A stretch of 64,000 nucleotides of DNA. Origin: Pyropia yezoensis. Taxonomy: Eukaryota > Rhodophyta > Bangiophyceae > Bangiales > Bangiaceae. The stretch is from assembly GCA_009829735.1 (NCBI GenBank), contig CM020618.1, forward strand, positions 20,135,346 to 20,199,345. Direction: 5' to 3'. Shown here one piece after another: positions 9,582 through 33,500 of this stretch. Both the position numbers and the translations under genes were made by a program. Below the pieces are notes generated by a model, which was given only the letters and a program-made list of their open reading frames with translations, was not told the origin of the DNA and made no database searches. The first letter of the stretch is position 1. Every line of letters begins with the position of its first letter.

Positions 9582-11690
9582 ATGTCCAGTTCCGAGATCC
9601 AAGCTGGGCCCGTGGTTCCGGCGGCGAGTGTTGCGGAGGAGAACTCGGGTAGTCGTGCCCCTCTCCTGCCTCCGGTTCCTCGGATGTCGGTGCTGGCGCC
9701 GGTCGCCACGGCGGGGACGGATCGAGTTCCCCCGGCTTTCGCGATGCACCCGGTCGAGGCCCCCCCGGAGGGTCTCCCGGAGATGCTTCTTGGGCAGGAC
9801 CCTCTGGCGGCCCGGCGTTACTCCACGGTGGTCGGCAACGCCGGCGCGGCCCAGTGCCAGCAGGATTGCATGGACCTCTGGCGCAAGGAACTCCAGCGCG
9901 GGGTCTTGACCGAGATGGACAAGGCACGTCTTCATACGGCGGACCAGATGCGCCTGGCACAAGACCGCTCCCAGAGCTTCTCGGGTTCCTCTTGGGTTGC
10001 TCTTCTGGAGGATCTCCCCTTCGCACTGGTACTGGATCTACCCTTGACCGAGCGTCGCGTGTCCGCGTCCGTTCTCCGGTGGCCGGAGGAGGAAGGGTAC
10101 GTCCACCGGGCGCTCAAGGTCTGGGACGAGGCGCTCAAGGGGTCGGGAAGCTTGAACTGCGACCCCCGTCCGAGCATGGTCGCTCTGGAGCCGCCTTTCT
10201 TGACCCGGAAATACTCCAAGTTGTCGCCGGCACGGGAGCAGGGTGAGCGACGCGGGCGTCAGCGTGACTTCCTTGTGAGCTGCAACCACCAGGAGTTCTG
10301 GAAGCTGGACAAGGCTAACCGGGCGGCATACTACCCCAAGGTCATCCCGCAGCAGCAGGAAGTCGAGATCCCGGTCGGGTTTGCTCCTTCCAGCATCCCT
10401 TGCACCTGGTACTTCTTGGACGCCTTGACTCAGGCGTCGATCAAGGGCTTCTTCCACTCAATCCCGTACATGATGTACACGTCCGAGATGACAGTCTTGG
10501 CGGCCAACCACTGGCTTCACGAGGTCTTGGTGTCCAACCGGCTTTGGTTTCTCCCCGACCTCCTGATGGTCTGGATTGTCGACAAGTTGACCGTCGACTT
10601 CCTGTGCAGCGAGGACGAGGAGTACAAGGAGCTCTTCCAGGCGATGATCGACTTCCGGCGTCTGGTACCGGTGCATGACCGGAACTTCTTGAACGCGATT
10701 GCCGACCAGAACCGCCCGCGTCGGGATGGCTTCGGTTGGGCGCAGGTGGTCTACCAGTCTTCTCCGGCTAAGGTGCAGCTGGCGACGCCGCTTCCGGCGT
10801 GGCCGCAGCTAGGTAGCTTTCCTGCTCCGGCCGCCCTTGATCTTCTGCCAGTTGGGCCGCCGGTGCAGGAGTCGGGATGGGCCGCGGCGGTCGGTCGGGC
10901 GTCCGCGGCGGCTCCGCTTCCTCCTGTTGCCCCTGTCGCCTCGCCTGAACCGTCACCGGCGCGTCCGCGCCCTGTTCCGGTTGTGCCGGTACTTCAAGCT
11001 CCTCCGGCACCGCGCCTGTCTGCGGCGAGTCTGGGAGTGGCCGTGCGGTCGCCGACTACTCCGGCCGCTCTGCCTCGGACGCCTTCTTCCAACGCCGGCG
11101 GCGCTGTGCCTCCGCTGGAGTTGGGTACTCCGGTTTCGGGGGCCGTTGTGGACCGTCCGGTAGTGTCGTCCTCGGGGCGGTTCGAGATTCCGGCGCCGAC
11201 TCTGCGCCTTACCCGCTTCCGGGTGCCTGACTGGTACCTGAACCAAGGTGGTCCGACATGCGACCAGTACGACGTCGGTATGATTGAAGACCAGCTGGGT
11301 CGTCTTCCGGTGCAGGTTGAAGGCGTCGGGTCTTCTCTGGTGCTGGGTACTTACGCCAGCGTCTTGAACAACGTGGTCGACCGGGTGTTTGCTTGCGCAG
11401 ATAGCGGTCAGATGTCGAACAACCCGGTGGTTGGCGAACTTCTGGCGACTTTGACGCGGCATGGCTTGGCCCAGCAGTGGTCAGAGACCTTCACGGGCTT
11501 CCAGCGGCGCCGACGGACATATCTGGATGAGCGGGAGCCACCGGCAACTACTGGTACTACTCCGATGGCGTCATACCGGGATGCGCCGCGTCCACCGCAC
11601 TACGTCATCCCGTCTTCCTCCGGTTCCCGTCGTACCGCGGGGGCAGCGCCGGAGGACACTCCCGCGGCTCAGCGTCCGCGCCGGGAGTAG
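9582..11690 (+). CDS. Convergent (antisense-strand) ORF of element B
   Basis: 702 codons from the ATG at 9582 (MSSSEIQAG). The frame is also open upstream to at least 9255, through the LTR end, with an alternative ATG at 9390. It runs opposite to gag-pol and stops 146 bp from the pol stop. The folded-looking part (about residues 70-400) includes AYYPKVIPQQQEVEIPVGF near residue 250 and ANHWLHEVLVSNRLWFLPDL near 310. A Pro/Ala-rich linker of about 150 residues follows, then a C-terminal domain with RVPDWYLNQ and a basic FQRRRRTY end. No known domain is recognised. The YYPK...VE(I/V)P.GF and LA..WL.EV...LW.LP motifs recur in the equivalent ORF of element C, which argues for selection on the protein. 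It is not an Env: no signal peptide or membrane span is seen. Confidence 0.8.
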   Translation: MSSSEIQAGPVVPAASVAEENSGSRAPLLPPVPRMSVLAPVATAGTDRVPPAFAMHPVEAPPEGLPEMLLGQDPLAARRYSTVVGNAGAAQCQQDCMDLWRKELQRGVLTEMDKARLHTADQMRLAQDRSQSFSGSSWVALLEDLPFALVLDLPLTERRVSASVLRWPEEEGYVHRALKVWDEALKGSGSLNCDPRPSMVALEPPFLTRKYSKLSPAREQGERRGRQRDFLVSCNHQEFWKLDKANRAAYYPKVIPQQQEVEIPVGFAPSSIPCTWYFLDALTQASIKGFFHSIPYMMYTSEMTVLAANHWLHEVLVSNRLWFLPDLLMVWIVDKLTVDFLCSEDEEYKELFQAMIDFRRLVPVHDRNFLNAIADQNRPRRDGFGWAQVVYQSSPAKVQLATPLPAWPQLGSFPAPAALDLLPVGPPVQESGWAAAVGRASAAAPLPPVAPVASPEPSPARPRPVPVVPVLQAPPAPRLSAASLGVAVRSPTTPAALPRTPSSNAGGAVPPLELGTPVSGAVVDRPVVSSSGRFEIPAPTLRLTRFRVPDWYLNQGGPTCDQYDVGMIEDQLGRLPVQVEGVGSSLVLGTYASVLNNVVDRVFACADSGQMSNNPVVGELLATLTRHGLAQQWSETFTGFQRRRRTYLDEREPPATTGTTPMASYRDAPRPPHYVIPSSSGSRRTAGAAPEDTPAAQRPRRE

Positions 11691-11835
11691 TAGTTGGAGG
11701 CAAGGAGGGTGAGGGTCTGGGGAGAAGCGAGGAGGGAAGAGGCGGAGAGAAGGGTTGCTCGAGCGGGTGCTTGTTTTCCTTGATTGTTTCATGCTTGCAT
11801 TGCGTGTTCTCCTTGATATACCCGTTCCCTTCTTC

Positions 11836-14800
11836 TCAATCCTCTTGTTCCGCATCCGTTGCGGGTGAGCTCGTCTCGTCCCGAGGGTCTTGGTTGGTCC
11901 CGTCCTCTTGGTCCTCCTCCGTGTCCGACTCCAGAATCTTGCCGGCTCTGGCCATTGGAGTGCCCTCAATCCCGTTCCGTCGCGTGTAGGCACAGACGTC
12001 CGCGATGGGTAGCCGGTTTGAGGGTTCCCATGTATCATCTGCTGGGTTAAAACCGAACCAGCGTACTCGCAGGTACAGGCGTCCATCTCTCCAGGCATGG
12101 TCGACAAACTTGACGTAGACATATTCCCGGCCTTCTTCTGGGGATAGCCAGGGTATCGCAGTCCGCTTGCGCCGGGTCAAGTCCCGCTGGCTTGGCGGTG
12201 GAGCTCGGGTGACATGGTCGCTGCTCACCCGGTACGGAGAGCCATCCACGTCTAGAAGGAAGGTCCAGCCATCCGTATTGAGAATCTCATAAGGTCCATC
12301 CGTCTTAGAGTCCAGCTTCCCCCGGGTCTTGCTATGGTTGTCCACAAAAACCCAGTCGCCACCACCCAGTTCCTTGTTCTTTTCCCGGACACCCTTGTCA
12401 TAGTCCCGCTTGTATCGCTCCTGGGTCTTCGAGATTGACTCCTTGACTCTTGGGAGCAGGAGCTTTAGTTGTTCCAGGAACTCATCCTTTGCCTTGGGAC
12501 CTGACTTCAGTGCAGGCTGGTGACCATCCGGTATTCTTTCCAGGGAGAAGTTGGTCAGCCGCCTTGGGGTGACAAAGTCGAGTGGAGCGACTCCCGTTGT
12601 CCGGTGAACTCGGGAGTTGTAGGCTAGAGTGAGGACAGCCAGGAGCTCGTCCCAGTCTTCTTGGTGCTCCTCCACGTAGTGCCGTAGCATGTCCACTAGG
12701 GTCCGGTTGAATCGTTCCACCTGGCCGTTCGTTTGAGGGTGGTACGTCGTGGTGTACAAGTTCTTGATGCCCATCAGGTCACAGACTCCTTGGAAGAACA
12801 GGGATGCAAACTGGGGACCGTTGTCGGTTAAGACGGAGTCTGGAGGGCCATAGGCAGCTATCCAGTACTCGCAGAAGGCTGACGTGACATCCAGAGCCGT
12901 GATGGTCCTCAGCGGGATTGCTCGAGTGAACTTGGAGAACCGGTCACAAATGATGAGCAGGTATATGTTGCCACTGGATGTTTCAGGTAGGGGCCCCAGG
13001 ATGTCCATGCTTAAGCTTGCAAAGGGCTCCGCCGCAGGGAATAGGCGTAGCTTAGAAGTCTTCTTCCTTTGGGACAACCGGTTCCTTGCACAAGAAATAC
13101 AAGCCTCCAGGCACTTATGAACGTCACTGGCCATGGTTTCCCAGTAATAATGTCGTCTCATGGAACTATACATCCGATTGATACCAGGATGCCCGGCCTG
13201 GGGAGACGAGTGCTCCAGGCGTAGGATGTCAGCTCGTAGACTTCGGGGTACGTAAACTTGAGTTGCCCCATCGAAGGGTGACACCCGTACCAGGAGTCCG
13301 TCTGTAGACTCGGAGAAGCGACTGTTCCGGTTCAGGTCCATTTGGTGGCGAAGCTCCAAGCATTGAGGGTCCGTCAATTGTGCCTCCAGCATCCGGTGAA
13401 TGGTTACCGGTTGATGAGCGTCAGGTGTCTCGTACAGGGAGCGTGCCAGCCACGTCCGACATTCGGGAGGATAAAGCAAGGTATTTCCTCCGGGATAGGA
13501 CCGGTATCGGCTGCGGGGGTCTCCAGCCTGGACATGGTGTCGGCGCAGTGGTGCTCCCTCCCTGCTCTGGTGCACACCTTGTACTTGAACTCCGAAAGGC
13601 GTAGGCGCCACCGGGCGACCCTTCCTTGACTGCTGTCCATGCATAGCAGCCACCTTAGACTGGCGTGGTCCGTCCGGATGAGGAACTCTTGTCCTTCAAG
13701 ATATGGACGTAACAGGAAGCAAGCCCAGACGACCGCCAAGCACTCGCGCTCGGTCGTGGAATAGTTCTTCTCGGCTGGAGTCAAGACGCGACTGTAGTAG
13801 CCTATCGGGAGGAAGTGCCCATCAGGTTGCTGCTGGAGTAGTGAGCACCCCACCTGGACGCCACAGGCATCAGTCTCCAGAACAAACTGGCCCTCCCGCT
13901 TGGGTAACGCCAGTACTGGAGTGGTGGTCAGGCGCTTCTTGAGCTCTTCGAAGGCTGCTGTCTGCTTCTCGTCAAACACCGGGAGTTGTGTTGGAAGCTT
14001 CTTGCTAGTAAGCTTGGTCAAGGGCCGGGCAATCAGAGCGTAGTCCCGTACGAACCGGCGGTAGACGTTGCACATACCCAGGAAGCTCTTGAGTTCCGTC
14101 TGGGTTTTAGGTTGCCGTGCATGTCGGAGGGCCTTGATGTTCTTCTCATTGACTCGGAGCTCCCCCGGACTCAGCACGTGCCCCAGGTACTCCACCTCAG
14201 TCTCAAACAGGTGGCACTTCTCGGCCTTGAGGGTAACTCCAGCCTTGGACAGGAGGGCCAGGACTTCTCGAAGGTGCTCCAGGTGTTCCGCTGGGGTCTT
14301 GGAGAAAACGATGATGTCGTCCAGGTAGACCAAACATGTTCTCCACCTTAGCCCCGACAGGATGATGTCGATGGCTCTCTGGAAGGTTGCCGGAGCATTA
14401 GTGAGACCAAAAGGGAGACGCTTGCACCGGAATAGTCCCATGTGGCACGTGAAGGTAGTCTTGTCCTTGTCCTCGTCAGCCAGAGGGATCTGCCAGTAAC
14501 CGGCATTACAATCCAGCGTCGAGAAGAGGGTGGCATCACCAAGAAAGTCGAGGCAATCATCCATCCGGGGTATCGGGTATACATCCTTGACTGTCATCTC
14601 GTTCAGGCGTCTGTAGTCAACGCAGAAACGGAAGTGACCGCCAGGTTTCGGGACGACTACCACCGGGAAAGCCCACTCGCCATCAGACGGCTCGATAACA
14701 TCCATCTTGAGCATCTTGTTAACCTGCTTCTCAATCTCATCCCGGCGATGAGATCCAGCCCGGTATGGTTGCATGTGCACTGGTTTGGCATCTGGCTTGA

Positions 14801-15935
14801 GTTGAATCCGGTGTAGGGTGGCGTCCATCTTGCCCAGCTCTCCGGACCACAGGTGCCGATATTCCTGGAGAAGCTTCTCCAGTGCCTCTTTCAAGTCGGG
14901 AGGGACGTTTTCTTGGTTGACCTTCGGCATCCCGGGCGGTGCTTGTTCGGGCTTCGGAGTAGTACGGCCAGCCTGCTCTTGTTCCGGAGATACGTCTAAG
15001 GCCGTCAAGTTGGATGCCAGCTCTTGTTGCAGGTTGAAGAGGTCTTCCTTGCTCATAGCGCGGGCGGACCCCCGGTAAGGCTCTGCTGTACCAACTCGAG
15101 TGCCCTTGGCGAGGGTTATTGGCTTCCGGCTCACGTTGACGATCAGCACCGAGAACGGGGTGTGCCTCTCCACCTTCTTGTGATGTCCGTGGGCTAGGTA
15201 TAATCGGTGTTTCGCCAGAAATTCCTTGCGTCCGTAGATCAGGCATTGACCTGCAGTCCGGGTCGTGACTTGAACCTTGGTCGCCGAGCGAGGAGGTAGG
15301 AGCACCGGTTTGATGAGGGTCAAGGTAGAGGGTGGGATGCGTTCCTTCTGGTTCTTGGCCACACGAACCTTGGTGTCCAGGTGCTCCAGCACTGGTGACA
15401 CAAACCCATGGTTGAACTGCACCTTTCCTTCTCCGGGTAGGATGCTCTTGACATGCTGCTTCTGGAAGTCCCAGCCTAGGATGAGGGGGACTGATAAGGT
15501 CTTGACTACTAGAAAGGGAAAAGCATTGGTTCATTGTTGACATAGATGGCGACGGGAAGACGGCCAAGCGGTCGTAGGGTTTGACCTGATGCGTCTACAA
15601 TATGGGTTCTGGTAGGCGCTCTCCAGGCATGTCGACGCCAGCCTGGAGGTAACAGGTTCTCAGTGATGACGCTTGGTCCGGCTCCCGTGTCGACCACCGG
15701 CGTAACAGCTTGGGGGAGGCTATCCCCCACACGCATACGAGCATTAATCTTGAGGTTTTCCTTACGCAGGACGAGCAAGGTCCCCTTGAACAAACAGGGT
15801 GTCCAGGCGGCTACCGGTTGAGCAGGTAACTGCCGTCCTTTCTCCCGGCACGCAAGGGGCAGAACAGGTAGAAGTACCCTGCCGTTGGAGATTCGGGAAG
15901 ACACTTGGGGAGAGCGCCTGCCCTACTCGTTTCCC
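11836..15935 (-). pseudogene. pol: pol of element B, left copy (frameshifted)
   Basis: This copy matches 19422-23522 almost base for base but has single-base differences that break the frame, for example one G fewer near 13437 and one A fewer near 15520. The catalytic motifs are the same as in the right copy. Breaks become more frequent towards the N gap, as expected of uncorrected read errors at a contig end rather than biological decay. Confidence 0.85.
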
Positions 15936-17659: not shown

Positions 17660-18159
17660 NNNNNNNNNNNNNNNNNNNNNNNNNNNNNNNNNNNNNNNNN
17701 NNNNNNNNNNNNNNNNNNNNNNNNNNNNNNNNNNNNNNNNNNNNNNNNNNNNNNNNNNNNNNNNNNNNNNNNNNNNNNNNNNNNNNNNNNNNNNNNNNNN
17801 NNNNNNNNNNNNNNNNNNNNNNNNNNNNNNNNNNNNNNNNNNNNNNNNNNNNNNNNNNNNNNNNNNNNNNNNNNNNNNNNNNNNNNNNNNNNNNNNNNNN
17901 NNNNNNNNNNNNNNNNNNNNNNNNNNNNNNNNNNNNNNNNNNNNNNNNNNNNNNNNNNNNNNNNNNNNNNNNNNNNNNNNNNNNNNNNNNNNNNNNNNNN
18001 NNNNNNNNNNNNNNNNNNNNNNNNNNNNNNNNNNNNNNNNNNNNNNNNNNNNNNNNNNNNNNNNNNNNNNNNNNNNNNNNNNNNNNNNNNNNNNNNNNNN
18101 NNNNNNNNNNNNNNNNNNNNNNNNNNNNNNNNNNNNNNNNNNNNNNNNNNNNNNNNNNN
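17660..18159. other. 500-base assembly gap
   Basis: Exactly 500 N, a round scaffolding spacer that carries no size information. The 7086 bp to its left (10574-17659) and the 7088 bp to its right (18160-25247) are near-identical copies of the same part of element B. Confidence 1.
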
Positions 18160-19276
18160 GATTGTCGACAAGTTGACCGTCGACTTCCTGTGCAGCGAGG
18201 ACGAGGAGTACAAGGAGCTCTTCCAGGCGATGATCGACTTCCGGCGTCTGGTACCGGTGCATGACCGGAACTTCTTGAACGCGATTGCCGACCAGAACCG
18301 CCCGCGTCGGGATGGCTTCGGTTGGGCGCAGGTGGTCTACCAGTCTTCTCCGGCTAAGGTGCAGCTGGCGACGCCGCTTCCGGCGTGGCCGCAGCTAGGT
18401 AGCTTTCCTGCTCCGGCCGCCCTTGATCTTCTGCCAGTTGGGCCGCCGGTGCAGGAGTCGGGATGGGCCGCGGCGGTCGGTCGGGCGTCCGCGGCGGCTC
18501 CGCTTCCTCCTGTTGCCCCTGTCGCCTCGCCTGAACCGTCACCGGCGCGTCCGCGCCCTGTTCCGGTTGTGCCGGTACTTCAAGCTCCTCCGGCACCGCG
18601 CCTGTCTGCGGCGAGTCTGGGAGTGGCCGTGCGGTCGCCGACTACTCCGGCCGCTCTGCCTCGGACGCCTTCTTCCAACGCCGGCGGCGCTGTGCCTCCG
18701 CTGGAGTTGGGTACTCCGGTTTCGGGGGCCGTTGTGGACCGTCCGGTAGTGTCGTCCTCGGGGCGGTTCGAGATTCCGGCGCCGACTCTGCGCCTTACCC
18801 GCTTCCGGGTGCCTGACTGGTACCTGAACCAAGGTGGTCCGACATGCGACCAGTACGACGTCGGTATGATTGAAGACCAGCTGGGTCGTCTTCCGGTGCA
18901 GGTTGAAGGCGTCGGGTCTTCTCTGGTGCTGGGTACTTACGCCAGCGTCTTGAACAACGTGGTCGACCGGGTGTTTGCTTGCGCAGATAGCGGTCAGATG
19001 TCGAACAACCCGGTGGTTGGCGAACTTCTGGCGACTTTGACGCGGCATGGCTTGGCCCAGCAGTGGTCAGAGACCTTCACGGGCTTCCAGCGGCGCCGAC
19101 GGACATATCTGGATGAGCGGGAGCCACCGGCAACTACTGGTACTACTCCGATGGCGTCATACCGGGATGCGCCGCGTCCACCGCACTACGTCATCCCGTC
19201 TTCCTCCGGTTCCCGTCGTACCGCGGGGGCAGCGCCGGAGGACACTCCCGCGGCTCAGCGTCCGCGCCGGGAGTAG
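18160..19276 (+). CDS. Convergent ORF of element B, right copy (5' part missing in gap)
   Basis: Identical as read to 10574-11690, beginning at the codon for the IVDKLTVDF segment, directly after the N run. It carries the Pro/Ala-rich linker and the C-terminal domain. It is probably the same physical locus as the left copy, not a second gene. Confidence 0.8.
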
Positions 19277-19421
19277 TAGTTGGAGGCAAGGAGGGTGAGG
19301 GTCTGGGGAGAAGCGAGGAGGGAAGAGGCGGAGAGAAGGGTTGCTCGAGCGGGTGCTTGTTTTCCTTGATTGTTTCATGCTTGCATTGCGTGTTCTCCTT
19401 GATATACCCGTTCCCTTCTTC

Positions 19422-22400
19422 TCAATCCTCTTGTTCCGCATCCGTTGCGGGTGAGCTCGTCTCGTCCCGAGGGTCTTGGTTGGTCCCGTCCTCTTGGTCC
19501 TCCTCCGTGTCCGACTCCAGAATCTTGCCGGCTCTGGCCATTGGAGTGCCCTCAATCCCGTTCCGTCGCGTGTAGGCACAGACGTCCGCGATGGGTAGCC
19601 GGTTTGAGGGTTCCCATGTATCATCTGCTGGGTTAAAACCGAACCAGCGTACTCGCAGGTACAGGCGTCCATCTCTCCAGGCATGGTCGACAAACTTGAC
19701 GTAGACATATTCCCGGCCTTCTTCTGGGGATAGCCAGGGTATCGCAGTCCGCTTGCGCCGGGTCAAGTCCCGCTGGCTTGGCGGTGGAGCTCGGGTGACA
19801 TGGTCGCTGCTCACCCGGTACGGAGAGCCATCCACGTCTAGAAGGAAGGTCCAGCCATCCGTATTGAGAATCTCATAAGGTCCATCCGTCTTAGAGTCCA
19901 GCTTCCCCCGGGTCTTGCTATGGTTGTCCACAAAAACCCAGTCGCCACCACCCAGTTCCTTGTTCTTTTCCCGGACACCCTTGTCATAGTCCCGCTTGTA
20001 TCGCTCCTGGGTCTTCGAGATTGACTCCTTGACTCTTGGGAGCAGGAGCTTTAGTTGTTCCAGGAACTCATCCTTTGCCTTGGGACCTGACTTCAGTGCA
20101 GGCTGGTGACCATCCGGTATTCTTTCCAGGGAGAAGTTGGTCAGCCGCCTTGGGGTGACAAAGTCGAGTGGAGCGACTCCCGTTGTCCGGTGAACTCGGG
20201 AGTTGTAGGCTAGAGTGAGGACAGCCAGGAGCTCGTCCCAGTCTTCTTGGTGCTCCTCCACGTAGTGCCGTAGCATGTCCACTAGGGTCCGGTTGAATCG
20301 TTCCACCTGGCCGTTCGTTTGAGGGTGGTACGTCGTGGTGTACAAGTTCTTGATGCCCATCAGGTCACAGACTCCTTGGAAGAACAGGGATGCAAACTGG
20401 GGACCGTTGTCGGTTAAGACGGAGTCTGGAGGGCCATAGGCAGCTATCCAGTACTCGCAGAAGGCTGACGTGACATCCAGAGCCGTGATGGTCCTCAGCG
20501 GGATTGCTCGAGTGAACTTGGAGAACCGGTCACAAATGATGAGCAGGTATATGTTGCCACTGGATGTTTCAGGTAGGGGCCCCAGGATGTCCATGCTTAA
20601 GCTTGCAAAGGGCTCCGCCGCAGGGAATAGGCGTAGCTTAGAAGTCTTCTTCCTTTGGGACAACCGGTTCCTTGCACAAGAAATACAAGCCTCCAGGCAC
20701 TTATGAACGTCACTGGCCATGGTTTCCCAGTAATAATGTCGTCTCATGGAACTATACATCCGATTGATACCAGGATGCCCGGCCTGGGGAGACGAGTGCT
20801 CCAGGCGTAGGATGTCAGCTCGTAGACTTCGGGGTACGTAAACTTGAGTTGCCCCATCGAAGGGTGACACCCGTACCAGGAGTCCGTCTGTAGACTCGGA
20901 GAAGCGACTGTTCCGGTTCAGGTCCATTTGGTGGCGAAGCTCCAAGCATTGAGGGTCCGTCAATTGTGCCTCCAGCATCCGGTGAATGGTTACCGGTTGA
21001 TGAGCGTCAGGTGTCTCGTACAGGGGAGCGTGCCAGCCACGTCCGACATTCGGGAGGATAAAGCAAGGTATTTCCTCCGGGATAGGACCGGTATCGGCTG
21101 CGGGGGTCTCCAGCCTGGACATGGTGTCGGCGCAGTGGTGCTCCCTCCCTGCTCTGGTGCACACCTTGTACTTGAACTCCGAAAGGCGTAGGCGCCACCG
21201 GGCGACCCTTCCTTGACTGCTGTCCATGCATAGCAGCCACCTTAGACTGGCGTGGTCCGTCCGGATGAGGAACTCTTGTCCTTCAAGATATGGACGTAAC
21301 AGGAAGCAAGCCCAGACGACCGCCAAGCACTCGCGCTCGGTCGTGGAATAGTTCTTCTCGGCTGGAGTCAAGACGCGACTGTAGTAGCCTATCGGGAGGA
21401 AGTGCCCATCAGGTTGCTGCTGGAGTAGTGAGCACCCCACCTGGACGCCACAGGCATCAGTCTCCAGAACAAACTGGCCCTCCCGCTTGGGTAACGCCAG
21501 TACTGGAGTGGTGGTCAGGCGCTTCTTGAGCTCTTCGAAGGCTGCTGTCTGCTTCTCGTCAAACACCGGGAGTTGTGTTGGAAGCTTCTTGCTAGTAAGC
21601 TTGGTCAAGGGCCGGGCAATCAGAGCGTAGTCCCGTACGAACCGGCGGTAGACGTTGCACATACCCAGGAAGCTCTTGAGTTCCGTCTGGGTTTTAGGTT
21701 GCCGTGCATGTCGGAGGGCCTTGATGTTCTTCTCATTGACTCGGAGCTCCCCCGGACTCAGCACGTGCCCCAGGTACTCCACCTCAGTCTCAAACAGGTG
21801 GCACTTCTCGGCCTTGAGGGTAACTCCAGCCTTGGACAGGAGGGCCAGGACTTCTCGAAGGTGCTCCAGGTGTTCCGCTGGGGTCTTGGAGAAAACGATG
21901 ATGTCGTCCAGGTAGACCAAACATGTTCTCCACCTTAGCCCCGACAGGATGATGTCGATGGCTCTCTGGAAGGTTGCCGGAGCATTAGTGAGACCAAAAG
22001 GGAGACGCTTGCACCGGAATAGTCCCATGTGGCACGTGAAGGTAGTCTTGTCCTTGTCCTCGTCAGCCAGAGGGATCTGCCAGTAACCGGCATTACAATC
22101 CAGCGTCGAGAAGAGGGTGGCATCACCAAGAAAGTCGAGGCAATCATCCATCCGGGGTATCGGGTATACATCCTTGACTGTCATCTCGTTCAGGCGTCTG
22201 TAGTCAACGCAGAAACGGAAGTGACCGCCAGGTTTCGGGACGACTACCACCGGGAAAGCCCACTCGCCATCAGACGGCTCGATAACATCCATCTTGAGCA
22301 TCTTGTTAACCTGCTTCTCAATCTCATCCCGGCGATGAGATCCAGCCCGGTATGGTTGCATGTGCACTGGTTTGGCATCTGGCTTGAGTTGAATCCGGTG

Positions 22401-23522
22401 TAGGGTGGCGTCCATCTTGCCCAGCTCTCCGGACCACAGGTGCCGATATTCCTGGAGAAGCTTCTCCAGTGCCTCTTTCAAGTCGGGAGGGACGTTTTCT
22501 TGGTTGACCTTCGGCATCCCGGGCGGTGCTTGTTCGGGCTTCGGAGTAGTACGGCCAGCCTGCTCTTGTTCCGGAGATACGTCTAAGGCCGTCAAGTTGG
22601 ATGCCAGCTCTTGTTGCAGGTTGAAGAGGTCTTCCTTGCTCATAGCGCGGGCGGACCCCCGGTAAGGCTCTGCTGTACCAACTCGAGTGCCCTTGGCGAG
22701 GGTTATTGGCTTCCGGCTCACGTTGACGATCAGCACCGAGAACGGGGTGTGCCTCTCCACCTTCTTGTGATGTCCGTGGGCTAGGTATAATCGGTGTTTC
22801 GCCAGAAATTCCTTGCGTCCGTAGATCAGGCATTGACCTGCAGTCCGGGTCGTGACTTGAACCTTGGTCGCCGAGCGAGGAGGTAGGAGCACCGGTTTGA
22901 TGAGGGTCAAGGTAGAGGGTGGGATGCGTTCCTTCTGGTTCTTGGCCACACGAACCTTGGTGTCCAGGTGCTCCAGCACTGGTGACACAAACCCATGGTT
23001 GAACTGCACCTTTCCTTCTCCGGGTAGGATGCTCTTGACATGCTGCTTCTGGAAGTCCCAGCCTAGGATGAGGGGGACTGATAAGGTCTTGACTACTAGA
23101 AAGGGAAAAAGCATTGGTTCATTGTTGACATAGATGGCGACGGGAAGACGGCCAAGCGGTCGTAGGGTTTGACCTGATGCGTCTACAATATGGGTTCTGG
23201 TAGGCGCTCTCCAGGCATGTCGACGCCAGCCTGGAGGTAACAGGTTCTCAGTGATGACGCTTGGTCCGGCTCCCGTGTCGACCACCGGCGTAACAGCTTG
23301 GGGGAGGCTATCCCCCACACGCATACGAGCATTAATCTTGAGGTTTTCCTTACGCAGGACGAGCAAGGTCCCCTTGAACAAACAGGGTGTCCAGGCGGCT
23401 ACCGGTTGAGCAGGTAACTGCCGTCCTTTCTCCCGGCACGCAAGGGGAGAACAGGTAGAAGTACCCTGCCGTTGGAGATTCGGGAAGACACTTGGGGAGA
23501 GCGCCTGCCCTACTCGTTTCCC
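19422..23522 (-). CDS. pol: Ty3-type pol polyprotein of element B, intact
   Basis: Open for about 1366 codons from the -1 frameshift site. The domains run in the Ty3 order. Protease: PVVDTGAGPSVI at about 23255-23290. Reverse transcriptase: VVVVPKPGGHFRFCVDYRRLN, LPFGLTNAPATFQ and catalytic YLDDIIVFS (about 21903). RNase H: ETDACG, then TERECLAVVWA. Integrase: an HHCC finger (GHPGINRMY...CISCARN), then D in MDILGPLPE, D in LTDNGPQFAS and E in QTNGQVERF. The C-terminal segment LYLRVRWFGFNPADDTWEP resembles a chromodomain, which in chromoviruses steers integration to marked chromatin. Pol has no start codon of its own at the 5' end, so it should be made as a Gag-Pol fusion. No defects are seen, so this copy could be active. 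Confidence 0.93.
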   Translation of the reverse strand, partial: GKRVGQALSPSVFPNLQRQGTSTCSPLACREKGRQLPAQPVAAWTPCLFKGTLLVLRKENLKINARMRVGDSLPQAVTPVVDTGAGPSVITENLLPPGWRRHAWRAPTRTHIVDASGQTLRPLGRLPVAIYVNNEPMLFPFLVVKTLSVPLILGWDFQKQHVKSILPGEGKVQFNHGFVSPVLEHLDTKVRVAKNQKERIPPSTLTLIKPVLLPPRSATKVQVTTRTAGQCLIYGRKEFLAKHRLYLAHGHHKKVERHTPFSVLIVNVSRKPITLAKGTRVGTAEPYRGSARAMSKEDLFNLQQELASNLTALDVSPEQEQAGRTTPKPEQAPPGMPKVNQENVPPDLKEALEKLLQEYRHLWSGELGKMDATLHRIQLKPDAKPVHMQPYRAGSHRRDEIEKQVNKMLKMDVIEPSDGEWAFPVVVVPKPGGHFRFCVDYRRLNEMTVKDVYPIPRMDDCLDFLGDATLFSTLDCNAGYWQIPLADEDKDKTTFTCHMGLFRCKRLPFGLTNAPATFQRAIDIILSGLRWRTCLVYLDDIIVFSKTPAEHLEHLREVLALLSKAGVTLKAEKCHLFETEVEYLGHVLSPGELRVNEKNIKALRHARQPKTQTELKSFLGMCNVYRRFVRDYALIARPLTKLTSKKLPTQLPVFDEKQTAAFEELKKRLTTTPVLALPKREGQFVLETDACGVQVGCSLLQQQPDGHFLPIGYYSRVLTPAEKNYSTTERECLAVVWACFLLRPYLEGQEFLIRTDHASLRWLLCMDSSQGRVARWRLRLSEFKYKVCTRAGREHHCADTMSRLETPAADTGPIPEEIPCFILPNVGRGWHAPLYETPDAHQPVTIHRMLEAQLTDPQCLELRHQMDLNRNSRFSESTDGLLVRVSPFDGATQVYVPRSLRADILRLEHSSPQAGHPGINRMYSSMRRHYYWETMASDVHKCLEACISCARNRLSQRKKTSKLRLFPAAEPFASLSMDILGPLPETSSGNIYLLIICDRFSKFTRAIPLRTITALDVTSAFCEYWIAAYGPPDSVLTDNGPQFASLFFQGVCDLMGIKNLYTTTYHPQTNGQVERFNRTLVDMLRHYVEEHQEDWDELLAVLTLAYNSRVHRTTGVAPLDFVTPRRLTNFSLERIPDGHQPALKSGPKAKDEFLEQLKLLLPRVKESISKTQERYKRDYDKGVREKNKELGGGDWVFVDNHSKTRGKLDSKTDGPYEILNTDGWTFLLDVDGSPYRVSSDHVTRAPPPSQRDLTRRKRTAIPWLSPEEGREYVYVKFVDHAWRDGRLYLRVRWFGFNPADDTWEPSNRLPIADVCAYTRRNGIEGTPMARAGKILESDTEEDQEDGTNQDPRDETSSPATDAEQED

Positions 23523-25270
23523 GGATCCGAGGAGTCCTTAGAGGTTTCGGTCTCCAGGTCAAAGTCCGTAGGAGCTTCCCTTGCCAGAGCCTCCGTGATG
23601 CTCTGTAAGGTTGCCACTCGGATGGCATGTACCTGTGCCTTGTCCATCTTGGAGGGTGCCCGCCGGTCAGCCCAGTTGACCGCCTTTGCAAACACCAGTC
23701 CTTGACGCTTGAGTTTCTCCTGGAGATCCTTGGGAATGGTCGGGCACTGGTAGGACATATGATCCTCCTTCTGGCACAGCCAGCAAGACCGGAACCGCTG
23801 GTTCCTGATCTGCTTGGGGGCGACCAGGGAAGGTTGCTCCTTAGAAACGAAGCCGCCCCACTTGTCCCTTGACTCCATGGGTGAGGCCTCGCCAACTGCG
23901 AGTACCGGTACAGGGTTATCACCTCCCTTATACTTGTCGGGTCCGGGACGAACTCGCGACAACGGCTTGGGAGTTGATACCATAGGAGCCTGGAGGGCCT
24001 TGGCTTGCCGGTGCTTGCCCTGGGTGTAGGCCATCAACTGCTGGAAGGTATGTTCTTGATGTTCCTGGTTGTAGTTCTCCGCATCCACTTGAAGATATTC
24101 AGGAAGCCCCTCCGAGAAGATCATCTTGAGCCTGTCCTCAGGGTAAACGTTGCCACAAGCATCGCTCATCTCCCGGACACGACGGGCGAACGCCTCTGGA
24201 GTCTCTTGTCTCTCCATGGTTGCCCGGTTCAGCCTACCGACTGCCTTACGCAGGGAGTCCGCGTCTGCGTAGTTGGACAGGAGCCAGTTGACCGCCTCCG
24301 GATAACTCGCGACGGTACGTCCAACAATGTGCCCGGCAGAGTCTGGTAGAATCTGTGCAAACCGCTGTTCCGCTTCTCCGGTCATGAAGTTAACCAGGAG
24401 ATAGAGAGCCTTGCCCTCGGACACATCGTTGTCATTGCATGCCTTGACAAACCGGCGCAGGAAGGCAAAGATAAGCGCCGGTTTCTTCCCGGAAAACTTA
24501 GGATGTCCCCCAAAGCTCGGCTGCATTCGCCGGCTCAGGGATGCCATCTTCTTGGCCATCTTCCGGGTGTAACCTTGGTCTTGGTTCTCCAGCCGGTAGT
24601 TACCCCAATACGTGACCTTGTTCAGGGTGGCATCTCCCACTTGGTGGGCAGGGAAGTCGAACTCGACTAGCCTGCGCCGGGTAGGACCGGGAGATGCATC
24701 CCAGTCATATCCCTCCTCAGAGCTGGAGGAACTGGTCTCGCTGGTGCTAGAGCGACGGCGACGACGCCGACGCCTACGGCTGCTCCGGTTACCGGTCTTG
24801 GAGCTCCCCGCCCCATAGGACGCAAGGGGAGGAAAAGCTTGGCCGGCCCCAGGAGTCGAAGTCTCAGGAAGACCCGTAGAACCATTCATAGCGGTGCCTC
24901 TGGCACTGCCAGTGCCCACAGGAAGAGGTGTATACACCCAGCTGCCATGTGTGGGTCCAGGAGTAAACACACCAGGGGCTATCCCTGGAGGTTGAGGAGT
25001 AGAACCGACAGGAGGGAGACGTCTGCTGCGAGCGGACTCAAACGCCGTTGACCCCGGGGTGGCTCCCACAGGAGGAACAGCCGGAGGAACGGGAGCAGGC
25101 GGTACTTGGCCGCCTGTAGACTCCAGTCCACTACCGGATGTCACGCCCAGGTCTGCTTCACCCGTAGGGAGAACGCCGGGTTGGGCACCGTCCCCCGCGG
25201 TGACCAGGGATGCGTCAAGGGACGCGGGGTCTACCCCTTCGGGCACCGTCGTGCCAGGGAGGGTAGCCAT
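23510..25270 (-). CDS. gag: gag of element B, intact
   Basis: 586 codons from the ATG at 25268-25270 (MATLPGTTV) to the TAG at 23510. The N-terminal 150 residues are Pro/Gly/Thr-rich and disordered. An Arg-run and Ser-run follow, then the capsid-like core with KPALIFAFLRRFVKACND and MTGEAEQRFAQILPDS. A single zinc knuckle, CWLCQKEDHMSYQC (Cys-x2-Cys-x4-His-x4-Cys), lies near residue 490. The last codons carry the slippery site for pol expression. The FLRR-F-KAC-DN--SEG signature is shared with the gag of element C, so the two elements belong to related lineages. Confidence 0.92.
   Translation of the reverse strand: MATLPGTTVPEGVDPASLDASLVTAGDGAQPGVLPTGEADLGVTSGSGLESTGGQVPPAPVPPAVPPVGATPGSTAFESARSRRLPPVGSTPQPPGIAPGVFTPGPTHGSWVYTPLPVGTGSARGTAMNGSTGLPETSTPGAGQAFPPLASYGAGSSKTGNRSSRRRRRRRRRSSTSETSSSSSEEGYDWDASPGPTRRRLVEFDFPAHQVGDATLNKVTYWGNYRLENQDQGYTRKMAKKMASLSRRMQPSFGGHPKFSGKKPALIFAFLRRFVKACNDNDVSEGKALYLLVNFMTGEAEQRFAQILPDSAGHIVGRTVASYPEAVNWLLSNYADADSLRKAVGRLNRATMERQETPEAFARRVREMSDACGNVYPEDRLKMIFSEGLPEYLQVDAENYNQEHQEHTFQQLMAYTQGKHRQAKALQAPMVSTPKPLSRVRPGPDKYKGGDNPVPVLAVGEASPMESRDKWGGFVSKEQPSLVAPKQIRNQRFRSCWLCQKEDHMSYQCPTIPKDLQEKLKRQGLVFAKAVNWADRRAPSKMDKAQVHAIRVATLQSITEALAREAPTDFDLETETSKDSSDPGNE
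23516..23522 (-). promoter_or_regulatory. -1 ribosomal frameshift heptamer GGGAAAC, element B
   Basis: On the minus strand the end of gag reads CCG GGA AAC GAG TAG. G GGA AAC is a canonical X XXY YYZ slippery sequence in the gag frame, one sense codon before the stop. pol is in exactly the -1 frame and is open across the site. GC-rich sequence follows (GGGCAGGCGCTC then CCCC) that could form a stimulatory structure. Confidence 0.85.
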
Positions 25271-25458
25271 GTTGGTCTCTTGACAGCCACAGTCCAGTTA
25301 CCTGCGTGTCCAAAGATCGCAAGACCACAAGAGAGGGGTTGGAGAGCCAGGAATGGGGTTCCCGTGAACGGGTGCAAATAATTCCCAAACCACAGAAAAA
25401 GACAGAACAGGAACAACGCAACCGCTGCTCCCAAATGTCTCTTCTCAAACACTCCAAT

Positions 25459-25475
25459 CCCCTGCTGCTCCACCA
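25459..25475 (-). promoter_or_regulatory. Primer binding site of element B
   Basis: Four bases after the 5' LTR end, the minus strand reads TGGTGGAGCAGCAGGGG. It begins with TGG, complementary to a tRNA CCA end. The implied tRNA 3' end is CUGCUCCA-CCA, with U at position 70 and A73, which fits tRNA-Ala (G3-U70). Element C has almost the same site. Confidence 0.65.
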
Positions 25476-25479
25476 AATA

Positions 25480-26051
25480 TGTGGTATAAAACTCGATCCT
25501 CTCAGACACGTGTCAATATCCCTCGGGGGAAAGGGACAGGTAACGCAGAAAGGGGAACTACGAGAATGGTATGCCTGTTGCCTCACGTGCCTGCTCGCAG
25601 AGCAAACAGATACGCACGGTAGTGCACACGGGGAAGAGGAAAGCAAACGCGCAGTTGTCTTTTTCCCTGAGGGCGCGGGCCGAGGGCGCCTCGCTGTCCC
25701 TCTTAACGTGCATCTGGGGGAACCCCGGCACGTTGGCCCGGTAGCCCCCCCATAACCCCGAGTGGCCCCGACCCGAGTCTAACCTCGTCAGGTCGGGGGC
25801 CACTATCACTACTAATTCTATTCCCACTCACTAATCTCACACTCAAATTCTCTCAAATCAAGTCCCTCACAAATATGCAAAAACACATCAGAAATCCCTC
25901 TCTCGCGTGTGGATAGCGTAGTCCACCGCATCCCAGTGCCGGGCACGGGCCACGGCCGCCAACCATCGCCACACGGCGGGCGTGTTCTGGCACCTGGTGC
26001 CCTCTGGTTGCAGTCCCGGGTCGGCGCCAAGTCGGGGCCAGGGATGCTACA
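25480..26051 (-). repeat. 5' LTR of element B
   Basis: 572 bp, the same as 8826-9397. In element orientation it starts TGTAG and ends CCACA, and it is followed by the primer site and gag. The sense promoter should lie here; I could not place a convincing TATA box in the sense direction. Confidence 0.93.
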
Positions 26052-26090: not shown

Positions 26091-26139
<49 letters not shown>

Positions 26140-27237: not shown

Positions 27238-27404
27238 CCGTGGTGGGCGAGGCCCGACTAGGATACCCAATGAGACACTTGGGTTACTAGATTTATCCGG
27301 CATCGTTGGTCGTGCGTTGTACATGGGCCAAGCACGAGAACCGAAAAGACTGCTCGGACGAGTGCACGATGGCATGGCATCGCCACACGGTCAGCCGACC
27401 TATA

Positions 27405-28877: not shown

Positions 28878-30617
28878 ATGGTGTACTCCGGGGTGGAGTC
28901 TGACTCCCTGGACGAGCGCATGGAGGACGCGCCCCGCGTCGTAGCAGCCGTCGAGACTTCCGGCGGGAGCTTCGCGGTTGCCCCGGGTGATGGGATGCCT
29001 GCGCCACCCGACTCTGGGTTGGCGGCGGGCTCTCCCCCGGAGGCAGGCCCTGTTACTGCACGGGAGGCCCTGGGGAGGTGGTTCTACCCACCCTGGCCCC
29101 TGTAAGAAAAGGGCTTGACGATTATCCGCTGCGGCCGAGTCGGCACAGCGATGAATCGCATCTGGAGGCTCCTCCGGGAGACGTTCCCCCGTAGGGTCGG
29201 GTTCCCTCCCGACTTCAAGACGGACCAGTTTGCCTTCCTTGACGACGAAGAGGTCGAAGACGTGCAGCGGGTCAAGAACTTGTTGACCCGCGGGGGTACC
29301 ACCGAGGGCCCCGGCGACGTACCGAACTTCACGTGGGACGCGGTGGCAACTCACCCCCCGTTCCTCCGTACCTCCGATCCACACGTCATTCACTTCGACG
29401 TGCGGATGGAGAATGACATCCGACGAGGTCCCTACCTGGTGAACTCGGCTCAACTTGTATTTTCACAACAAGCGCCGGTGAACAAGGAGTTACTCTACCC
29501 CAAGAAGCCCGAGTGGTGGCCTCAAGTTGAGCTCCTCTATGGGTTCCCCGCGCTACTACCGCGGTTGGTGGATCACTTTGGTTCCATCATGATGACGGCT
29601 AGCCCGGACCACCTAGTTATTGCCATGTTGGCGACACTCTGGATCCTCGAGGTCATATCGACCTGGGTGGCCTGCGCCCAGAGACGCGTGATACTCTGGC
29701 ACCTCCCGCCCCGCCCGATCCAAGGTTTAGAGCAGCTCACCCCTCTGCAAGTTGCTGAGGGGTGCTCTTCGGGTCAGCTCACTCTACTCGAGGAGATGTT
29801 GAAGCTCCACCAGCTCATCGAGTGGGAGAGCATCGAGCACAGGTTGCGCCGACCTTCCTGTGGGCCCAAGGACGACGGCACACTTCGCCAGTTCGTCTGG
29901 GTCAGCCGTAAACTTCACGACGGCCCCGTGGTACTCAAAGAGGGGTTGGGCATCGGGGACTACCCGTATGCCGCAGGGGTGGAGCGCCACACTGCGCCCC
30001 CCCCGTACAAGGAGACGGTGGTGGGAGCAGCGACTCACCAAGAGTACCTGGCGCAAGGCGCTTCGGCGGCCCCAACTCGGGGTCCCGGGTACCCTCGGGC
30101 TCCGCCGAGTCGGCGAGCCCCTCCTCGGCCGCATCCCCTACTTGCCGACGAGACCGCGACCGCCGACGCGGCTGCCACGCCCGCGCTCGGCGCGTCGCCC
30201 GCCATCGCCGCGTCGCTTACTATCTCCGTCAGCGCCAACGCTAACTCCCCCACCGCCGTCGCGGCGCGGCGCGTCACGCCTTCGGCGGCGACCGCCTCGG
30301 CGGTGGAGTCGAGGTGGCCGTGCACGGAGGCGACGGCGGCGACAAAGTTATCGGCCGCCGCGGCGGCCGACGCCGGCGCTGCCACCGCATGCGCCGCCAC
30401 CTCTTCCGAGGTGACCCGCCGCCGTCGTCGGTGCATCAGCCACTTTAATCGCGGCAGTCGCCGCCATGGTGTCCTTGGCGACGGCCCTTCCGCGTGCCGC
30501 CGTCGTGGCGGTCGCGTCGAGCGCCGCCGCCCTCGCCGCCGCCGCCGCCGCGTCCGCTTAGTCGATGACGGGTGCCGGCGGGGCCGGTCGTCGCCGGCCA
30601 GGCGCGGCGGACCCTAG
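28878..30617 (+). pseudogene. Convergent ORF of element C', nonsense and chimeric 3' end
   Basis: From MVYSGVESDSLDERMED this matches the convergent ORF of element C, including QFAFLDDEEVEDVQR, YPKKPEWWPQVE and PDHLVIAMLATLW. Codon 29103-29105 is TAA where element C has TAT. The frame then stays open to 30617, but similarity fades near 30130. The last 160 codons are Ala/Arg-rich and unrelated. The minus-strand frame there (30035-30436) is Ala-rich and coiled-coil-like, so the remnant may be joined to a piece of another gene. No gag or pol of C' was found. Confidence 0.75.
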
Positions 30618-30748
30618 AGCAGCTTCATCGTCGACGGAAAAAGGTGGTCGCTGGGGAGGGCGGCAGAAGCCGGGCGGGAGGGGGGGACGCGAATGAGGAG
30701 GTCGAGACAAGGGCAGCATCGAGGGACGGATGCGAGGAGCAGGGCCAC

Positions 30749-31217
30749 TGTGGCAAAAACCACTCGCACACGCGACACCCAAGTTGGGGCGGTGCACAAG
30801 GGCTGCCTCCCGTGTCGGGGGAACCGGAAGAAGTGCAAGTCGCACACACTCTGTCCCTGTTGTGGGGCAATCCCCTCACTGACAAACAAGAAGATGGTGT
30901 GTGGTCCAACAGTTTCTTGGTCGGGACGGGGACGCAGGGCCAAGCCCCGCTGTCCCTCCCCTTATCCCCCCAGGGTCCCCTCAGAATCTCGCCACTCAGA
31001 ATCTCCCACCCCAGCACCTGCCCACCGGGCCACACGAAAATTCAAGACGATAAATGCAGAAAACCCTCAAATCCAAGTTGGATTTACTACTAAGCTAACT
31101 ATCCCAAACTTAGGGAATACGGACCCAAATGCAGGGGGAGGAACGGATCAGGCTAGTGGCCTGCCGCCCCTTGCATGGCACGTGTTGCCCCCCTACCTGG
31201 GGGTCAATACTGCCACA
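30749..31217 (-). repeat. 3' LTR of element C
   Basis: 469 bp, starting TGTGGC and ending GCCACA on the plus strand, so its ends form a perfect 6-bp inverted repeat. It matches the split LTR at 43198-45484. Confidence 0.93.
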
Positions 31218-31232
31218 CTCCCCTCTCCTCAG
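31218..31232 (-). promoter_or_regulatory. Polypurine tract of element C
   Basis: On the minus strand GAGGAGAGGGGAG lies directly before the 3' LTR, as expected for second-strand priming. Confidence 0.75.
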
Positions 31233-31556
31233 TTCCGACCGACCCGGTCGGCCCTGTGAGGGGGTGCGTAAACGCACGTCTCGGCGTTGGGGGCGCGACT
31301 TGCTGTCCCCCCCTCGAGTACGTAACGCGGATGTGGAGGCGGTCACGTTGACCGCCCCTCTCCTCAAGCTTGCCCACTCGGCAGCTTGCTCTCCCCGGCT
31401 CGCACTTCACCATCACCACCACATGCCCTTCACCTTCGCCTGGGCCGCCCCACGCTGGGGAGGCCACCCGTCTACCCACGATCCGAGTCCCCCTCAACTC
31501 GAGGCGGGTCTCGTGCCGCTGTAGCCAGGGCGTCTCTCCCGAACTTGGGGAGAGCC

Positions 31557-33500
31557 ATGGCGACCCCGGGGGTGGAGACGGACTCCCTCGACGAACGTAT
31601 GGAGGACACCTCCTACGGTGAGGCGCCCGCCGGAACTTCCGGCGGGGGCTCCGCGGTTACTCCGGGGGATGGGACTCCCGCGTCACCCGGATTTGGGTTG
31701 ACGGCGGGATCTCCCCCGGAGGCGGGACACGTTATCCCGCGTGAGGCCTTGGGGCGGTGGTTTTACCCCGCTTGGCCTCTGTATGAGGAGGGGTTGACTG
31801 TTCTTCGCTGTGGCCGACTTGGCGCAGCGATGGATCGGGTATGGGACAGCCTACGGGAGAAGTATTCCCGTAGGATCGGGTTCCCTGCCGGCTTCAGGAC
31901 GGACCAGTTTGCCTTCCTGGACGATGAGGAGGTTGAGGATGTACAGCGGGCCAAGTCCATGATGGACCGCGGGGGAACTATCACGGGTCCCGGCGACTTG
32001 CCGACCTTTACTTGGGACGCGGTGGCAACTCGCCCCCCGTACCTTCACGAGGCCGATCAGCACACTCATCACTTTGATGTGCGGATGGAGAAGGACTTCC
32101 GGCGAGGTCCCTACTTGGTGCCCTCGGCTCAACTTGAGTTTCCCGAGCAGTCTGCTGCCAGTAAGGAGCAGTACTACCCGAAGAAGCCCGAGTGGTGGCC
32201 TCAAGTTGAGGTCCCCTACGGGTTCCCGGCGTTGCTGCCACGGTTGCTCGACCACTTCGGCTCCGTCATGTTGACGGCTAGCCCGGATCATCTGGTGTGG
32301 GCCATGTTGGCCACCCAGTGGCTCCTCGAGGTCATGTCGACCTGGGTGTCCTGTGTCCAGCGGCGGGGGATGCTTTGGCATCTTCCCCTCCGGCTTATCC
32401 AAGGTTTGGAACAGCTCACCCCTCAGCTAGTTGCTGAGGGGTGCTCATCAGGACAACTCACTCTACTTGAGGAGATGCTCCGCCTCCACAAGTTTATCGA
32501 GTGGGAGAGTATCGAGCACAAGTTGCGCCGCCCCACTCGTGGGCCCAAGGACGATGGCGCAATTCGCCAGTTCGTATGGGTCGCTCGTGAACTTCACGAC
32601 GGCCGTGTGGTGCTACGAGAGGGGTTGGGCATCGGGTACTACCCGTATGCCCCGGGGATGGATCGCCACACTGCGCCGCCCCCGGACAAGGCCATAGTTA
32701 TGGCCGTGCCTTCGCATGATGACCACATGACTCAGCCCACTGCGGGGGCCCCGAGTAGGGGTCGCAGTTACACCCGGGCACCGCCACCTCGGCGTGCCCC
32801 TCCACTTCCTCCTGTCCTCTACCAGCCGCACGGGGACATCCCGATTAGCGTGGCCATTGAGTCGTCTACCCCGGTGTCCCCCAACTTGGGGGCCACCCTC
32901 CTGACGGTATATCCCAAGTTGGTGTTACCGGCCACGCCTCTGACCTCAGAGATGATGATCACCACGTTGGTGCGCACCATTTCCTGGTTGGCCGCGTCGA
33001 CCGCAACCCTGCAAGCTTCCGAGACTCCTCAACTTGAGGAGCGCGTTCGTACTGCAGTGGCTACCGCTAGTTGCGAGTCGGTGGCGGAGTTTGGGACGGC
33101 CGAGTTGGCTCGCATGGGGGCTATTATGCCCCAGCCAGCCCCACTTGGGCGTGGCAAACGTCGTGCGAGCCGGGCATACTCGCCTCCTCGCCGTCGTCGC
33201 CGACGCTCCCGGCGCTCTCCCTCCGTGTCGGAAGACGAGTTGTCTTACTCCGTCTCGGAGTCCTCGAATCCGTCAGAGTCGGAGTCGGTCCGGCGTCTGC
33301 GTCGCCAACTTGCGCGCAAGACTAAGCAGAAGAGCAGCCGCGGTCGTCGCCACTGGCGCGACCGTGAGGGGCGCGACGGGTCCGACTTGGAGCCGCCGGC
33401 CCCGCCGACTGTTGGGGAGCGTTATCGCCGTGGGTCTCGCCGCTCGCCTCCACGTGAGGGCGAGGGCCGTGGGGTTGGAGAGTCTAGCATGCATGCCTAG
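31557..33500 (+). CDS. Convergent (antisense-strand) ORF of element C
   Basis: 647 codons from the ATG at 31557 (MATPGVETDSLDER), fully open, ending 111 bp from the pol stop on the opposite strand. The N-terminal 400 residues look folded: FPAGFRTDQFAFLDDEEVED, then YYPKKPEWWPQVEVPYGF near residue 206, then LVWAMLATQWLLEVMSTW near 250. The C-terminal 150 residues are rich in Arg-Ser with SPPRRRRRRSRRSPS and a basic RRLRRQLARKTKQK, suggesting a nuclear, nucleic-acid-binding protein. No known domain is recognised. It stays intact although this element's pol is broken, and it has relatives in C' and, more distantly, in element B. Confidence 0.8.
   Translation: MATPGVETDSLDERMEDTSYGEAPAGTSGGGSAVTPGDGTPASPGFGLTAGSPPEAGHVIPREALGRWFYPAWPLYEEGLTVLRCGRLGAAMDRVWDSLREKYSRRIGFPAGFRTDQFAFLDDEEVEDVQRAKSMMDRGGTITGPGDLPTFTWDAVATRPPYLHEADQHTHHFDVRMEKDFRRGPYLVPSAQLEFPEQSAASKEQYYPKKPEWWPQVEVPYGFPALLPRLLDHFGSVMLTASPDHLVWAMLATQWLLEVMSTWVSCVQRRGMLWHLPLRLIQGLEQLTPQLVAEGCSSGQLTLLEEMLRLHKFIEWESIEHKLRRPTRGPKDDGAIRQFVWVARELHDGRVVLREGLGIGYYPYAPGMDRHTAPPPDKAIVMAVPSHDDHMTQPTAGAPSRGRSYTRAPPPRRAPPLPPVLYQPHGDIPISVAIESSTPVSPNLGATLLTVYPKLVLPATPLTSEMMITTLVRTISWLAASTATLQASETPQLEERVRTAVATASCESVAEFGTAELARMGAIMPQPAPLGRGKRRASRAYSPPRRRRRRSRRSPSVSEDELSYSVSESSNPSESESVRRLRRQLARKTKQKSSRGRRHWRDREGRDGSDLEPPAPPTVGERYRRGSRRSPPREGEGRGVGESSMHA

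Follow-up and report, generated by a model that had tools for sequence, protein, structure and literature searches.

Two Ty3 retrotransposons, here called elements B and C, in a 64,000-nucleotide stretch of the red alga Pyropia yezoensis (GCA_009829735.1, contig CM020618.1, positions 20,135,346 to 20,199,345 of the forward strand; "the window" hereafter) carry a long open reading frame (ORF) on the strand opposite to gag-pol. The question raised by this locus is whether these ORFs are genes and, if so, what their products do. The assembly comprises 107.5 Mb in 11 contigs; repeats make up 48% of the P. yezoensis genome, for the most part long terminal repeat (LTR) retrotransposons (PMC7423979). 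The present analysis shows that the ORF is a long-standing accessory gene of one Ty3 clade in P. yezoensis. At least three families with pols of that clade carry it, many of the young copies have kept it open, and, judging from sequence comparison, it almost certainly codes for a protein under purifying selection. To the reading as a whole, namely an antisense accessory gene that probably encodes a nuclear trans-acting regulator, we assign a probability of about 0.5.

The ORFs, their relatives in the window and the flanking non-coding segments are the following.

9582..11690, plus strand: antisense ORF of element B, 702 amino acids (aa), stop TAG, convergent to pol
11691..11835, no strand: spacer between the convergent stops of element B, 145 bp
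9398..9581, plus strand: leader of the B ORF, from LTR to ATG, holding the minus-strand purine-rich tract; putative promoter
31557..33500, plus strand: antisense ORF of element C, 647 aa, start codon in GCCATGG, stop TAG, convergent to pol
33501..33611, no strand: spacer between the convergent stops of element C, 111 bp, 96.4% identity against seven copies; putative transcript end
31218..31556, plus strand: leader of the C ORF, its initial 180 bp 95–100% identical to copy L037; putative promoter
18161..19276, plus strand: second internal region of B, 3′ portion of its antisense ORF, 371 codons, 100% identity to B
28878..30092, plus strand: relic of the antisense gene in fragment C′, 405 codons aligned to C, in-frame stop just before 29106

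The gag-pol genes of both elements are on the minus strand, and the antisense ORFs occupy the interval between the pol stop and the 3′ LTR, as a first-pass annotation of the window had described; its coordinates and its lengths of 650–700 codons are borne out (702 and 647 codons). Its stop-to-stop distance of 111 bp for C is likewise correct, while the 146 bp given for B measures 145. The motifs YYPK, VE(I/V)P.GF and LW.LP are common to both proteins, but LA..WL.EV, also listed as shared, is one residue off in B (LAANHWLHEV vs LATQWLLEV in C). The third copy assigned to C′ (28878–30617) is a homologue; however, its alignment to C ends at 30092, and the in-frame stop makes it a relic. The C ORF is indeed intact while the pol of the same element is broken, the pol pieces lying in differing frames with a gap of about 3.6 kb after the protease piece. 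A run of N at 17660–18159 hides the 5′ portion of this ORF in the second B internal region. The remaining five frames contain 6–18 stops across the B ORF and 10–25 across the C ORF, so that composition cannot account for the open frames.

The comparison of copies that the earlier annotation had proposed gives ratios of nonsynonymous to synonymous substitution rates (dN/dS) clearly below 1. The window C ORF yields 0.189–0.208 against seven uninterrupted copies (bootstrap 0.13–0.28 for L037), with 13 synonymous changes and 1 nonsynonymous change in codons 217–324 of the comparison with L037 (0.02); identities at codon positions 1, 2 and 3 across these copies are about 95.5, 97 and 87.5%. Between C and C′, with one stop codon removed and 404 of the 405 codons used, the ratio is 0.27 (bootstrap 0.20–0.37), and the five other frames give 1.18, 1.61, 1.09, 0.43 and 2.08, the 0.43 belonging to the reverse frame with common third positions. 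Six B copies give 0.08–0.28 in 15 pairs, and every length difference among them is a multiple of three. The copies fetched were 9 for C and 11 for B, from 73 and 72 other pol matches listed; the antisense ORF is uninterrupted in 7 and 5 of them, respectively, and these, together with the window copies, make up the sets, interrupted or rearranged copies being left out. The corresponding values for pol are 0.107–0.111 in C (591 codons in three C copies, including the elements of L035 and L036) and 0.14 in B (one comparison).

The proteins of the two elements are homologous. A single BLASTP comparison of B and C gives an expectation value (E) of 6e-8 across 166 aa, their local-alignment score of 129 exceeds the maximum of 98 in 300 locally shuffled controls, and the profile–profile comparison suggested by the first-pass annotation finds the relationship with a probability of 95.1% and E 3.1e-8 (hhalign, B profile vs non-B profile; two reversed controls, 0.1% each). 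A third P. yezoensis family, D, was found at L025, where a 638-aa antisense ORF ends about 124 bp from the pol stop, and relics of the gene are present at L022, L027, L055 (46% to D) and L056. Homology and dN/dS alike therefore support the claim that two diverged Ty3 families share a conserved coding gene in convergent orientation to pol, and family D and the relics extend it. Pairwise gene scores are 412 for C–D and 129 for both B–C and B–D. A database search with the C protein returned P0001 (93% identity), P0002 (31%; P2) and P0003 (29%; P3), and all 10 pairs among B, C, D, P2 and P3 exceed every one of 300 local shuffles. An alignment search recovered only P0001 and P0003, both already known, and the P0002 core as query brought 48 further proteins. 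No relatives were confirmed in viral contigs with P0002 as query, or in prokaryote genomes with alignment A7, which is A6 minus 7 of its 27 rows (P0036 and P0046 apparently part frame-shifted, the others redundant, short or partial).

The gene travels with a particular pol. There are at least 74 pol copies each of B and C in the genome, and at least 61 of the 74 listed B pol matches are followed by a convergent B core, among the cores listed, 1022–1157 bp downstream (median 1148); a same-strand B core from that list lies within 6 kb of none of the 74. The figure of 61 is a lower bound because the genome has at least 150 matches to the B core, of which 150 entered the comparison. The 13 without a linked core include the second window copy, with its N gap, and L048, L049 and L052, which are broken or rearranged. 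Among the B core matches listed, 148 of 150 are without an internal stop. For the D core, 69 of the 82 best full-length matches (at least 88% identity) lie in a stop-free frame of at least 600 codons, in a list that is biased to intact copies because it is ordered by score.

In a tree of 23 open pol frames of at least 600 aa, spanning at least 600 positions, one clade (100/100) unites B, C, D, L022 and a frame of L011, the last placed by pol alone; some places occur twice in the tree (L003 in L011, L004 in L012, L033 in the window). Inside that clade C and D group together (100/99) and B stands apart, i.e., (B,(C,D)), in a tree whose bootstrap had not fully settled. The gene scores given above, highest for C–D, agree with this order and speak for co-inheritance of gene and pol. 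The remaining 14 frames constitute a second group. In its member L021 the distance from the pol stop to the 3′ LTR is only about 300 bp, which leaves no room for the antisense gene; this measurement comes from L021 alone, because the other checked loci showed no clear LTR pair around pol. At L018 and L027 a C-type antisense gene does lie upstream of an L021-type pol stop. At L018 a C-type pol end that belongs with the gene (96% identity) lies between it and the L021-type element, an order which we read as a nested insertion; the relic at L027, followed by only 61 bp of C-type spacer, is probably nested as well. Loci L010, L015 and L028 contain B- or C-type pieces, either next to the pol type of the locus itself or at the edge of the sequence fetched. 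Chromodomain matches in the B, C, D and L022 pols are weak (E 0.0004–0.0054, all below the Pfam cut-off), while two pols of the group without the gene match strongly (E 1e-12 and 1e-14). The regions compared were these.

19425-23381 and 33615-34082 of the window, and L025, L022 and L030: regions in the chromodomain comparison

Genes of this kind are known elsewhere. Antisense ORFs at the same site between pol and the 3′ LTR are described for Grande, RIRE2, Retand, PvRetro13 and Boty (PMC7264820, PMC11963269), and for Grande gene23 an antisense transcript from its own promoter and a nuclear protein are described (PMC7264820). Grande gene23 of maize, the RIRE2 antisense ORF of rice and the class aORF-3R in general resemble the red-algal gene in being antisense, in lying between pol and the 3′ LTR and in occurring in most copies. 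In P. yezoensis that position and orientation are found in B, C and D, the gene is present in at least 61 of 74 listed B copies, 7 of the 9 C copies fetched have it without interruption, and its conservation is like that of other element proteins (dN/dS 0.19–0.21 vs 0.11 for pol). The parallel with antisense ORFs of the plant Grande/RIRE2 type, drawn in the first-pass annotation, is thus supported as a likeness of layout, Retand included; the hosts of Grande and RIRE2 are flowering plants.

Retand antisense ORFs with TRP28 (PF04195) have tandem repeats nearby, as does family D, where a 96-bp, 2.7-copy array lies about 100 bp upstream of the ATG (PMC11963269 for Retand). No such array was found in the B region, and C and C′ contain short arrays of 15–18 bp only. 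The protein core also shows a likeness, in the spacing of G, P, HFG and P, to a plant pattern and to conserved positions in PMC11963269. However, the PF04195 sequence profile had no match in the 10 and 8 family proteins or pieces scanned, nor anywhere in the genome, and we therefore do not file the red-algal proteins under TRP28. Retand is a non-chromovirus lineage (PMC11963269), while the B, C and D pols have their weak, sub-threshold chromodomain matches.

Outside plants, Boty of Botrytis cinerea likewise carries an extra antisense gene, brtn, in a Ty3 element (PMC8365987, PMC7264820); this gene is fungal and is likened to the red-algal one by description only. The HBZ and APH-2 genes of human T-lymphotropic virus (HTLV) lie antisense near the 3′ LTR and encode nuclear regulatory proteins (PMC11963269). 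HTLV is a retrovirus, and the functional likeness of these genes to the red-algal gene is by analogy only. HBZ has a bZIP, a domain for which the red-algal family proteins gave no Pfam match. A study of Ectocarpus mentions a Sola DNA transposon whose accessory gene is on the opposite strand, and red algae with EnSpm elements of giant size that bear accessory genes (PMC12477816). A report of an antisense ORF in red-algal Ty3 elements was not found in searches of the open literature, made mostly at abstract level. Genes of this kind are known; what appears to be new is the protein family, together with its occurrence throughout a clade of Ty3 elements in red algae.

In the regulator reading, a separate plus-strand mRNA would begin at the conserved leader, either next to the 3′ LTR or inside it, and end in the spacer of 111–145 bp; the protein would enter the nucleus and act in trans on the expression or integration of the element itself. 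The position of the gene and the conservation of its leader and spacer lead us to this reading, as do the basic runs that some members have and the parallel with Grande; by that analogy, the trans-acting mechanism is plausible. The leader of window C is 93–94% identical to that of the seven copies, one 60-bp block being just 80% identical. The protein consists of a conserved core, a Pro/Ala-rich linker and basic runs, the latter close to the C terminus in B, C and P3. The RNA fold of the B stop–stop region is weaker than that of shuffles (z +1.2).

Several observations weigh against the regulator reading. D and P2 have only a few basic runs or short ones, and nuclear entry is consequently weakly supported. 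Since the leader contains the plus-strand priming tract, some of its conservation is expected. Pfam scans of the family proteins gave nothing convincing: at E up to 10 the matches were Rad10 (0.21, one member), a helical-bundle family (0.47–0.62) and two domains of unknown function (0.053–0.2), all below the cut-off. Against PDB sequences, C had no match and the profile reached 0.13 or worse; for B, Rieske subunits appeared at E 0.011 through the Pro/Ala-rich stretch and were rejected as not convincing. AlphaFold2 gave a poor model for the C core (mean predicted local distance difference test 41.5, predicted template modelling score 0.40), its best part being the helical residues 150–262 with block means of about 42–75, mostly 54–75, and Foldseek with this poor model found 0 matches at E 0.001 in PDB and BFVD. 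The absence of a recognisable domain, stated from the outset, is thereby confirmed. As to selection, the dN/dS sample consists of uninterrupted copies, which pulls the values low, and dS in the C family is 0.17–0.18 in the antisense gene vs 0.11 in pol, for which recombination between subfamilies is a possible cause. Young C copies differ at 4–10 sites in about equal synonymous and nonsynonymous numbers, as is expected of drift after insertion.

The next alternative follows from the transcript itself: an mRNA complementary to about 2 kb of the genomic RNA would invite double-stranded RNA, and the protein might be an anti-silencing factor that works in trans against the RNA interference or chromatin silencing of the host. 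The entire gene is antisense within the expected genomic RNA and is carried by high-copy, young families. The VANC proteins of the Arabidopsis VANDAL elements are an analogue for such a role. Nevertheless, Pfam found no domain known in silencing suppressors, and the clade without the gene is abundant too (many among at least 150 Ty3 integrase matches), which implies that the gene is unnecessary for high copy number as such. We consider this explanation unlikely, although it is the strongest of the alternatives.

Somewhat less likely still is a particle, RNA-packaging or nuclear-import factor, i.e., a protein that joins the virus-like particle or the pre-integration complex. The C-terminal basic runs of B, C and P3 would suit this role, and retroviral accessory proteins serve transport (PMC7264820), but antisense expression uncouples the protein from Gag-Pol and a zinc knuckle was not found in it. 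Nor does it resemble Gag, the hhalign probability being 0.2% against four gag sequences.

It might also be that the transcript matters as a regulatory antisense RNA and the protein does not. LTR elements commonly show antisense transcripts (PMC7264820), and leader and spacer are conserved here, yet selection acts at the amino-acid level in one specific frame and the proteins are homologous across families. This contradicts a protein-free version, which we regard as very improbable. A functionless ORF, whether arisen by chance, captured from the host or left by a decayed nested element, would fit the lack of a recognisable domain; it is contradicted by the purifying selection, the lack of relation to gag, the presence in three families with one-clade pols and the frame retained in many copies, and is more improbable still. 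Least probable of all is an envelope-like gene, which the site between pol and the 3′ LTR recalls but the antisense orientation and the hydropathy of B, C, D, P2 and P3 oppose, no transmembrane segment being indicated (maxima on a 19-residue scale of 0.99–1.54, none reaching 1.6).

Coming back to the regulator reading, we propose tentatively, and as something that may well be otherwise, that red-algal Ty3 elements gained an antisense trans-acting protein, of a family of its own and at the same site, independently of those of flowering plants and fungi, and that it is a requirement of this clade. If so, an antisense gene before the 3′ LTR would be a recurrent answer to one general problem of Ty3 elements. 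Antisense extra ORFs of Ty3 elements have so far been reported in flowering plants and a fungus, and their function is not known. A separate deep lineage with a protein family of its own, clear selection at the level of amino acids, numerous young copies and a gene-less sister group in one 107-Mb genome offers a natural comparison for function. There is also a warning in these results, since 650–700-codon genes of unknown function in nori genomes may be retrotransposon genes.

The host elements have the following parts in the window.

8826..9397, minus strand: 3′ LTR of the B composite, 572 bp, TG...CA, GGAAC on its outer side
25480..26051, minus strand: 5′ LTR of the B composite, same sequence as the 3′ LTR, GGAAC on its outer side
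11836..15793, minus strand: pol of the first B internal region, split across frames
19422..23381, minus strand: pol of the second B internal region, 1319 open codons; RVP, reverse transcriptase, RNase H, integrase and a weak Chromo match
23510..25270, minus strand: gag in the second internal region of B, with a weak match to a zinc knuckle
30749..31217, minus strand: 3′ LTR of element C, 469 bp, outer flank GCCAC
33612..36619, minus strand: broken reverse transcriptase–RNase H–integrase part of C pol, chromodomain-like end
40242..42220, minus strand: protease (40242-40985) and gag (41306-42220) pieces of element C
43198..45484, minus strand: 5′ LTR of element C (43198-43607 and 45422-45484), interrupted by an inverted-repeat insertion, outer flank GCCAC

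Element B (8826-26051) is a tandem composite of two internal regions, 99.7% identical across 7.1 kb, with one LTR pair and one target duplication. The 500-N gap at 17660-18159 covers the junction, where a middle LTR is expected, and unequal recombination or assembly collapse could be the cause of the composite. The two 469-bp LTRs of element C differ at 1 position. In both B and C, TGGAGCAGCAGGGGA directly follows the 5′ LTR at the position of the primer-binding site, and a purine-rich stretch precedes the 3′ LTR. The insertion in the C 5′ LTR (43608-45421) is 1.8 kb long and has 732-bp inverted repeats that are 99% complementary and 369 bp apart, with AGTG on either side. Another Ty3 reverse-transcriptase piece lies at 3786-4736 on the plus strand and shares 35% identity with B pol. 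Finally, a direct repeat of about 455 bp occurs three times at 38387-39600, two of the units matching at 94% over 300 bp and the third at 62%.

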